Positions 15,650-17,128 of a stretch of 20,434 nucleotides of DNA are shown piece by piece (the first letter of the stretch is position 1; each line of letters begins with the position of its first letter). The stretch is taken from the IMG/VR virus record IMGVR_UViG_3300017743_000190, positions 1 through 20,434 of that record. One strand, written 5' to 3'. The DNA comes from a virus. The position numbers and the translations under genes are program-made. The notes beneath the pieces are model-generated. The model was given only the letters and a program-made list of their open reading frames with translations. It was not told the DNA's origin and ran no database searches.

Positions 15650-15655
15650 AAAAGG

Positions 15656-15684
15656 TTGACAACAAGACATCTTGGTGCTATAGT
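15656..15684 (+). promoter_or_regulatory. Strong sigma70-type promoter before the 80-aa gene
   Basis: TTGACA (15656-15661), a 17-nt spacer and TATAGT (15679-15684): a near-consensus host promoter, preceded by AAAAAAGG. It would also transcribe the downstream structured RNA and the rpiB pair. Confidence 0.7.
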
Positions 15685-15718: not shown

Positions 15719-15961
15719 ATGTTTAGAATCCCTAGCTTTTATGAGATGCCAAATATGACTTTTGAAGAAGCAAAAAACGTACTAGAAATAGACGGTGATT
15801 TGCTTAAAGGTATGGAGCATGTTAGTGAGCATTGGGATCGTTATGCATCTGGTAATGCTGATGATATGTACGCAGATGACGATGCATTTTATGAGCATTG
15901 GGAATACGAAGTAAACGCATATAATGTTGTGTTTTCCAAAATGCAACCTTTATTTGTTTAA
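15719..15961 (+). CDS. Small acidic protein, function unknown
   Basis: 80 aa, strongly acidic in its second half (GNADDMYADDDAFYEHWEYE), with no signal peptide or membrane helix. ATG follows GAAGGA (about 15706-15711). The N-terminal part FYEMPNMTFEEAKNVLEIDGDLLKG could be a short helical hairpin. I do not recognise the family. A near-consensus sigma70 promoter stands 35 nt upstream, so strong early expression is likely; small acidic early proteins in phages often bind host proteins or mimic DNA, but nothing specific in this sequence shows that. The gene is followed directly by the structured RNA segment. Confidence 0.62.
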   Translation: MFRIPSFYEMPNMTFEEAKNVLEIDGDLLKGMEHVSEHWDRYASGNADDMYADDDAFYEHWEYEVNAYNVVFSKMQPLFV

Positions 15962-16145
15962 ACCCTCAGCCAAGAGGAGCGGGAGAAAATGGATTAGCAT
16001 AACGTAACACCGCAAAAAGCACGAGTAGGTTCTCCCTTAAGAATTGAAAGTTATGGTGAAGCAAGGTGTTAAGGGGCTGGCTAGCTAAAAGTCCGGACTA
16101 GTCAGACGACAGTGAAGCGACCACACTAAAAGCCCGGCATTTTTT
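15962..16145 (+). ncRNA. Candidate structured RNA or structured leader upstream of the rpiB pair
   Basis: About 185 nt without a long ORF. GC is 87 of 180 bases (48 percent, hand count 15961-16140), clearly above the neighbouring coding DNA. Complementary segments visible by eye: GGGAGAA 15981-15987 with TTCTCCC 16030-16036; TAACACC 16005-16011 with GGTGTTA 16065-16071, which crosses the first helix and would make a pseudoknot; CTGGCTAG 16077-16084 with CTAGTCAG 16098-16105 (one G-U); and GCTGGCT 16076-16082 with AGCCCGGC 16131-16138 (one bulge), which excludes the previous helix. The last pair ends just before six T (16140-16145), like an intrinsic terminator. The 69-aa gene follows 15 nt later. 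It does not match tRNA, tmRNA, RNase P RNA, 6S RNA or riboswitch consensus that I can recall. It could be a free small RNA or a cis-acting leader; strand is assumed from the T-run and promoter at 15656. Confidence 0.6.
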
Positions 16146-16160
16146 AATTAAGAGGTTATT

Positions 16161-16370
16161 ATGGAATATGATGATAGACATGGCGGTCCTTATGACCGAG
16201 GCGGAGCAGACAGCTACTACCGAAGAGGATATAATCCTCATTACTATACCGGTGATTCTTTGCAGTCAGAAGAAGTTCCAATGGCATTAATGACACCTGC
16301 AGAAATTACTGCTTATACCAAAGGGTATAATGATAATGAAGATCTTGGTGATTTCAAGGATTGGGGTTAA
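16161..16370 (+). CDS. Small Tyr/Gly/Asp-rich protein coupled to RpiB
   Basis: 69 aa, with an AAGAGG ribosome site at 16150-16155. The sequence begins MEYDDRHGGPYDRGGADSYY and continues RRGYNPHYYTGDS..SEEV, then MTPAEITAYTKGYNDNEDLGDFKDWG. I recall short proteins with the same DRGxADxYYxRxxxPHYY ... EExxAYxxGYxxxExxxDxKDW pattern in many phages and bacteria; the function is not known to me. There is no membrane segment. Its stop overlaps the ATG of rpiB as TAATG (16368-16372), so translation of the two is coupled. It lies just downstream of the structured RNA and would share any regulation by it. Confidence 0.68.
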   Translation: MEYDDRHGGPYDRGGADSYYRRGYNPHYYTGDSLQSEEVPMALMTPAEITAYTKGYNDNEDLGDFKDWG

Positions 16371-16792
16371 TGATTGTTACAATAGGCAGTGATCATGGCG
16401 GTTACAAAACAAAACAAGCAATCAGTGAATGGTTACTAGAACAAGGACATGTAGTCAGAGATTGTGGTTGCGATAGCGAAGAAAGTTGTGACTACCCAGA
16501 CTTTGCAAAAGGTGTATGTGAACTAGTAGCAGATGGCGGCGCGAATTTTGGTATCCTAATATGTGGTACAGGCATAGGTATGAGTATGACAGCAAATCGT
16601 AATCCAAAGATCCGTGCAGGACTTTGTAAAGATACACATACTGCAATGCTTACAAGACAACATAACAATGCCAATGTATTGTGCTTAGGTGCTAGAGTAA
16701 CTGACCCAGCTTGGATTATTAATATAGTTGATACATTTCTTACCACAGAATTTGAAGGTGGTAGACACGAAAAAAGATTAGAAAAATTATAA
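16370..16792 (+). CDS. rpiB: Ribose-5-phosphate isomerase B
   Basis: 140 aa from ATG 16370 (a TTG at 16361 would add three residues but is less likely, given the TAATG overlap). RpiB interconverts ribulose 5-phosphate and ribose 5-phosphate in the pentose phosphate pathway. The catalytic set appears complete: SDHGG with D8 and H9, CGTGIG with the base Cys at 65 and Thr at 67, H98 in TRQHNNANVL, and R132 and R136 in GGRHEKRLEKL. These positions coincide with the numbering I recall for E. coli RpiB. The length is normal for the RpiB/LacA/LacB family (about 145-150). As a phage-borne metabolic gene near a dNMP kinase it could feed ribose phosphate into nucleotide synthesis. LacA/LacB-type sugar isomerases are the alternative, but the Cys and His favour RpiB. 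Confidence 0.92.
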   Translation: MIVTIGSDHGGYKTKQAISEWLLEQGHVVRDCGCDSEESCDYPDFAKGVCELVADGGANFGILICGTGIGMSMTANRNPKIRAGLCKDTHTAMLTRQHNNANVLCLGARVTDPAWIINIVDTFLTTEFEGGRHEKRLEKL

Positions 16793-16799
16793 AAAAAGG

Positions 16800-16828
16800 T
16801 TGACAAAGAATTCTTGTAGTGTTACACT
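16800..16828 (+). promoter_or_regulatory. Sigma70-type promoter for the wHTH-like gene
   Basis: TTGACA (16800-16805), a 17-nt spacer and TACACT (16823-16828), preceded by AAAAAAAGG as at 15656. There is a leader of about 45 nt, then GGAGG at 16870-16874 and ATG 16880. Confidence 0.65.
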
Positions 16829-16879
16829 ACTTTTATTGTTTAGGGATAAACTCTAAACACAACTTAACTGGAGGCATAT

Positions 16880-17128
16880 ATGGCTTTTACTACAATTAAA
16901 ACTAACCAGAAGACTTTCTTAGAAACTTATCTAAGAGGTACTGGAAAAACTTTGACTGCGAAAGACGCAAAAGCAAGGTTCGGCATTCAGCAACTTCCTG
17001 CTAGAATGAGCGAAATGAAATCAGCTGGACTTAATGTTAAGACTGATATTGCTACTACAGGTGCAACACGATATAGTATTACTGCTCGTGACACAACTGG
17101 TAGCAGAGCAAAAATGTTCGCAGTATAA
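16880..17128 (+). CDS. Small winged-helix-like DNA-binding protein
   Basis: 82 aa, basic. ATG follows a strong GGAGG. The arrangement TFLETYLRGTGKTLTAKDAKARFGIQQLPARMSEMKSAGLNVKTDIATTGATRYSI looks like a winged helix: helix 1, an LTAKDAKARFG helix-turn-helix start, a recognition helix LPARMSEMKSAG, then a two-stranded wing ending in RYSI. Comparable short phage proteins (ARF/SRFGI..L.ARI.ELR..G) are annotated as helix-turn-helix proteins. It has its own sigma70-type promoter and an intrinsic terminator, that is, a stand-alone monocistronic unit, which fits a transcriptional regulator or abundant DNA-binding protein. The target is unknown; the closely spaced early and late promoters in this window are obvious candidates, but this is speculation. 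Confidence 0.7.
   Translation: MAFTTIKTNQKTFLETYLRGTGKTLTAKDAKARFGIQQLPARMSEMKSAGLNVKTDIATTGATRYSITARDTTGSRAKMFAV

Follow-up and report, generated by a model that had tools for sequence, protein, structure and literature searches.

Organization of the locus

The window, by which we mean the whole 20,434-nucleotide stretch of DNA that was analyzed, is a 20.4-kb piece of an uncultured virus record (IMG/VR record IMGVR_UViG_3300017743_000190). On its + strand, the gap between an 80-aa ORF (15719-15961) and a 69-aa ORF (16161-16370) is without a sizeable ORF, and the 69-aa ORF is followed by rpiB (16370-16792; PF02502). GC content is 46% for positions 15984-16139. A T6 run at 16140-16145 lies 15 nt 5' of the ATG at 16161, as the initial annotation of this DNA had reported. 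The nearest strong promoter, here as elsewhere a sigma70-like consensus match, is upstream of both the 80-aa gene and the RNA described below (Table 1), and a consensus scan found no promoter directly before the RNA in the clade of the window. A strong promoter-like block (AAAAAGGTTGACA) is repeated in the window at 15650-15684, before the 80-aa gene, and at 16793-16830, before an HTH_39 gene, and is present also in two relatives (L003 and L007).

Single-sequence folding gave no extra stability over shuffled sequences (z = +1.04 for the + strand and +0.36 for the - strand), so that the window sequence taken alone holds nothing beyond chance. This is an expected outcome, because the structure contains pseudoknots. 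A search of the window against Rfam gave nothing at threshold, and one chance match to a CRISPR repeat (E 5.7).

Table 1. Features of the RNA and its upstream promoter in the window
Feature	Position	Strand	Evidence
Sigma70-like promoter, TTGACA-17-TATAGT, TG before -10	15656-15684	+	Consensus scan, 11/12 matches
Shine-Dalgarno region: GAGGAG 15974-15979, GGGAG 15981-15985	15974-15985	+	Sequence match; Shine-Dalgarno-like in nearly all members
Start-stop mini-ORF, ATG GAT TAG, then C	15989-15997	+	Found in 28/29 members with complete 5' end
P1 5' strand; H-type pseudoknot stem 1	16008-16012, pairs with 16054-16058	+	97% paired, 3/5 pairs doubly changed
P1b 5' strand	16021-16022, pairs with 16050-16051	+	100% paired, both pairs doubly changed
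P2 5' strand; H-type pseudoknot stem 2	16034-16040, pairs with 16069-16075	+	100% paired, 5/8 pairs doubly changed
P1b and P1 3' strands, in P2 loop	16050-16058	+	Covariation
P2 3' strand	16069-16075	+	Covariation
Hairpin P3 (16077-16084/16098-16105), apical loop CUAAAAGUCCGGA	16077-16105	+	100% paired, 8/8 pairs doubly changed
Hairpin P4, GUG AAGCGAC CAC (16112-16114/16122-16124)	16112-16124	+	85% paired, 2/3 pairs doubly changed
PK2 5' side, in P3 loop	16091, 16093-16096	+	100% paired to 3' tail, 3/5 pairs doubly changed
PK2 3' side, tail CCGGC	16134-16138	+	Covariation
U6 tract directly 3' of PK2, probable 3' end or partial terminator	16140-16145	+	T-runs common in members

A family of RNAs in uncultured phages

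The segment holds a real, undescribed structured RNA that is common to many uncultured, mostly marine, phages. Relatives were collected from loci near the 69-aa gene and by two pattern scans, followed by nhmmer and covariance model searches. These yielded about 60 loci, which represent about 30 distinct RNAs, on IMG/VR contigs and in one marine metagenome-assembled genome (MAG), with pairwise identity down to 0.41; the members all come from assembled metagenomes and are kin by descent, so counts across them are not counts of independent events. True members scored 75-172 bits against the covariance model, except for a fragment cut by its contig end (L070), and all other sequences scored at most 23 bits. 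The two best of these weak matches are coding sequence, and two others are without the structured part. An additional member, L206, was left out of model building and was recovered at 74.9 bits (E 3.6e-14). It is on contig PAWD01000051.1, filed under a marine Thaumarchaeota MAG, and has phage-like genes as neighbors; the contig is probably a misbinned phage. When model R1 was searched in 300 genomes of that MAG's phylum, L206 alone matched.

Six family members compared by blastn with 50,697 phage genomes had no real match; short matches in T4-like Enterobacter phages were inside an annotated coding sequence. A Rubritalea pattern match (L205) was rejected, since the family structure was not visible in it and the model did not match. 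The 80-aa gene has relatives that lack the RNA, so the RNA is an optional module.

Conserved fold

Helices were counted on alignment A1 and on a model-made alignment of 27 rows. There are six: P1 (5 bp), P1b (2 bp), P2 (8 bp), P3 (8 bp), P4 (3 bp) and PK2 (5 bp). P1 crosses P2 in an H-type pseudoknot, and PK2 joins the loop of P3 to the 3' tail. Standard pairs occupy 98.1% of the cells of the six helices in 27 sequences, and double changes occur in 23 of the 31 pairs. The initial annotation had proposed a structured, possibly pseudoknotted RNA, and the homologues bear this out through compensatory changes: 199 cells are doubly changed, compared to 55 +/- 6 in shuffled alignments and 6-24 in slid controls. 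P1 and PK2, which were absent from the model used for aligning, are paired in 98.8% of cells. A pseudoknotted structured RNA is thus confirmed far beyond chance by this comparison. The helix cells hold 35 G.U pairs and no A.C pairs, and therefore the + strand is the RNA. Many loop nucleotides are invariant across members.

The conserved helices differ from those first drawn. Two crossing 7-bp complementarities had been pointed out from the window, and both are there in the letters, but neither is conserved: 15981-15987 (GGGAGAA) with 16030-16036 (TTCTCCC) is paired in 70.5% of cells with three double changes, and 16005-16011 (TAACACC) with 16065-16071 (GGTGTTA) in 71.4% with one. The mutually exclusive 3' helices that had given the segment the look of a transcriptional riboswitch or attenuator are not supported by the comparison, as the terminator-like GGGCU/AGCCC alternative pairs in 24% of cells and no alternative helix is conserved. 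A decayed gene, the contrary case considered in the initial annotation, does not explain the segment either: stop codons interrupt every forward frame in 25 of 27 members and the conserved blocks do not stay in phase with one another, and therefore the segment is not the remnant of a gene. The same two observations rule out translation of a conserved ELKxMxKQG frame.

A start-stop mini-ORF at the 5' end

The most telling feature of the RNA is a mini-ORF that had gone unreported in the window. The 5' end is otherwise weakly conserved, and yet a Shine-Dalgarno sequence (called by sequence match), an AUG, zero or one codon and a stop are found in 28 of the 29 members whose 5' end is complete, compared to 2.0% of random 49-nt windows from the same contigs. 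With up to two sense codons allowed, as in minigenes, the count is again 28 of 29; in L200 an alternative start gives two codons before the stop. Members elsewhere have ATG TAG, ATG TGA, ATG ACC TGA, ATG GTA TGA or ATG GTT TAA. The second codon is free and the start shifts by 3 nt, while the position of the stop is usually fixed, 10-11 nt from P1 in 22 of 25 members and 5-7 nt in L142/L149 and L206. From the known path of mRNA through the 30S subunit, we infer that the entry side of a ribosome would lie at roughly the first base of P1 when the mini-ORF stop occupied its A site.

Among 25 rows, the stop is TGA in 11, TAG in 11 and TAA in three. A C after a stop codon is a weak termination context. 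In 21 of 26 members the stop and the base behind it read TGAC or TAGC, compared to 7.8% of 319 long ORFs on the same contigs; collapsed by lineage, the count is 9 of 13 (p = 6e-8). The C could also be conserved for a structural reason. In Escherichia coli, termination is influenced by the base that follows the stop (PMC5373646).

Two side observations concern this end of the RNA. In the clade of the window, 15963-15979 can form a CCUC-loop-GAGG hairpin over the first Shine-Dalgarno sequence of the mini-ORF, which might serve as an added control on the access of ribosomes. L166, the sole member without the mini-ORF, is also one of two members (with L159) in which one forward frame is open across the whole RNA.

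Promoters, 3' ends and neighboring genes

Sigma70-like promoters lie just upstream of the RNA in L206, L202/L194, L161/L204/L185 and L165/L135 (empirical p 0.0005-0.025), and weaker ones in L166, L174, L153 and L159. At the other end, a T-run of at least four within 14 nt after PK2 is found in 17 of 27 members, compared to a background of 6%. L172 has a canonical hairpin terminator in place of the U-tract, followed by a new promoter, and a promoter also lies between the RNA and the next gene in L133 (p 0.003), L159 (p 0.009) and probably L142. Together, the upstream promoters, the U-tract or terminator ends and the promoters behind them suggest a stand-alone small RNA, and in several lineages we infer that it forms a separate transcription unit. 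The second reading offered in the initial annotation, a free small RNA that has an end of its own, fits better than a switch for rpiB.

The genes downstream are unrelated and include those for an ATPase, DUF932, DUF7178, GP88, DUF6011, HTH_39 and proteins of no assigned family, and the gap between RNA and gene ranges from 12 to over 300 nt across the family. The RNA is co-directional with the next gene in every locus seen. An HTH_39 winged-helix gene (phrog_4973) is the immediate downstream neighbor of the RNA in L206 (3462-3722) and, in the clade of the window, follows two genes further on (16880-17128).

Relationship to known RNAs

The initial annotation could not place the RNA in a known class, and this stands: no Rfam family covers the whole of it. 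The 62-nt GP20-b model (RF03003), which reportedly comes from Weinberg et al. 2017, aligns with the 3' third in several members, at the same place and on the same strand. All of these matches are below its gathering score of 36.2 bits, the best being 31.7 bits in L197 and 29.9 bits in L135 and those in several other members weaker. L197 and L135 match GP20-b positions 1-62, comprising a P3-like hairpin, a GGUG..CACC hairpin and an AAAAAGC tail, and hairpin P4 resembles the 3' hairpin of RF03003. GP20-b gave no match in the window at E 10 and none in 50 other records at E 0.01; a match in a coding region of L135 (E 0.003) is due to chance, and two pattern scans of viral contigs did not find the GP20-b consensus. 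These sub-threshold matches to the 3' third, with none in the 50 records, make the 3' domain a probable relative of GP20-b. The whole RNA is not fileable as GP20-b, a model that is without the P1/P2 pseudoknot and the mini-ORF and is filed as cis-regulatory in Rfam.

The nearest precedents in setting are manA (RF01745) and wcaG (RF01761), conserved structured RNAs of marine sources and cyanophages near varied genes, with a possible pseudoknot in manA; the account in PMC2864571, as far as it extends, mentions no start-stop mini-ORF. Neither model matched the window by cmscan, even at E 10. Transfer-messenger RNA likewise joins a message-like part to pseudoknots, but ARAGORN found no tmRNA in the window. 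Readthrough and frameshift pseudoknots resemble the phage RNA in that an H-type pseudoknot follows a stop codon at a defined spacing. The phage RNA, in contrast, has no conserved frame past its stop and therefore nothing to read into, and we rejected a role as a stimulator of stop-codon readthrough.

Proposed function and alternative explanations

Comparison across the family shows the fold, the + strand, the mini-ORF, the usual placement of its stop, and independence from rpiB or any one gene. A ribosome-binding site and a start-stop gene set against a knotted fold suggest that the RNA is probably a ribosome catch and not a switch for a sugar gene. The likeliest interpretation, which we consider somewhat probable, is that these phage RNAs of about 160 nt, half message and half structured, are self-contained, trans-acting small RNAs on which a ribosome docks. 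A ribosome would initiate on the mini-ORF via the Shine-Dalgarno sequence and AUG, would be held at a stop where termination is slow (UGAC or UAGC), and would come to rest with the pseudoknot at its mRNA entry side. The docked RNA may occupy, mark or be stabilized by host ribosomes during infection. Possible uses of the docked ribosome are to sequester or mark ribosomes, to protect the RNA, or to gate read-through to the gene that follows; in the window, where the RNA lies within an operon, it may also limit read-through into downstream genes. More tentatively, the family could represent a new kind of noncoding RNA that combines start-stop ribosome recruitment with a double pseudoknot at the mRNA entry side and acts in trans on translation or ribosome fate. 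The papers searched describe no RNA in which a ribosome is kept at a start-stop site next to a folded structure. If ribosome docking is correct, phages carry an RNA built for this purpose, through which the control of host ribosomes by RNA from environmental phages would become testable, and the curated GP20-b model may cover just the 3' third of something longer. Whatever its function, the RNA is a well-supported family that as a whole is absent from Rfam 15.

A switch specific to one gene is unlikely. A cis-acting 5' leader in a broader sense, either a riboswitch or a translation-coupled attenuator, is a possible alternative to which we give a minor share of our confidence. Here, occupancy of the mini-ORF, or a ligand on the pseudoknot core, would set the outcome at PK2 and the U-tract, so that transcription ends or the next ribosome-binding site is hidden. 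The consistent orientation of RNA and next gene is in its favor, as are the U-tract directly after PK2, the aptamer-like invariance of many loop nucleotides and the cis-regulatory filing of GP20-b. In the clade of the window and in L202, L153 and L206, the next gene begins about 16-50 nt downstream of the RNA and no promoter separates the two. This arrangement counts against docking and also fits a cis leader; the missing mini-ORF of L166 and the shorter stop spacing of L142/L149 and L206 likewise count against docking. However, a leader is at odds with the wide variation in downstream genes and gaps, with the promoter or terminator that separates RNA and gene in L172, L133 and L159, and with the lack of a conserved alternative helix.

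It is less probable still that the RNA is a ribozyme or a protein- or ligand-binding structure in which the start-stop motif is untranslated. The very strong covariation and the invariant loop nucleotides would be explained, and U[AG][AG]C could serve as an RNA element. Such an element would not account for the alternation of UAG, UGA and UAA, the free second codon, starts that move by exactly 3 nt, or a correctly placed Shine-Dalgarno sequence.

The mini-ORF also recalls the phage lambda bar and axe-txe mg2 minigenes, which share a Shine-Dalgarno sequence, AUG, one more codon and a stop; the portion of PMC8708949 that bears on them describes no conserved fold behind the stop. According to the same portion, minigene RNA is stabilized by long pauses, and UAA is the most toxic stop. 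The rarity of UAA, in just three of 26 members, therefore argues against a toxin that depletes host tRNA through peptidyl-tRNA drop-off, and for pausing. The phage RNAs differ further in that the second codon is unconserved and in several members missing, leaving AUG-stop, and a toxin would leave the conserved pseudoknots unexplained, which makes a bar-like toxic minigene very improbable despite the one- or two-codon ORF after a Shine-Dalgarno sequence in a phage. The metabolite switch for rpiB first suggested for this segment is refuted as a general function and can be set aside almost entirely: the RNA precedes a small ORF and then rpiB in the window and in L002 (99% identical), but among the 35 loci with RpiB relatives in IMG/VR L002 is the only one with the RNA before rpiB, the record of L022 has it (93% identity) away from rpiB, and other RNA loci mostly precede unrelated genes.

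Other elements near the RNA

In five loci (L161, at 1234-1340, and L204, L185, L196 and L145), a second, different pseudoknot-like element lies directly after the RNA. It consists of ATTGTCG..CGACA around a covarying hairpin (AGTG/CACT, GGG/CCC, ACG/CGT) with the loop AGTATAAA, and has an outer pairing of CCTG/CAGG or GCTTA/TAAGC; it is absent in L153. This element is possibly another new leader RNA, before a gene for a small basic protein. In L165/L135 and in L197, copies of one and the same phage-specific intergenic hairpin lie on either side of the RNA gene (GTCCAAYRTTGGAC; AAGTCCGCTGACGGACTAA), and in L159 a repeat, TTAAATTAACTGTTGAC, lies on both sides of the RNA.
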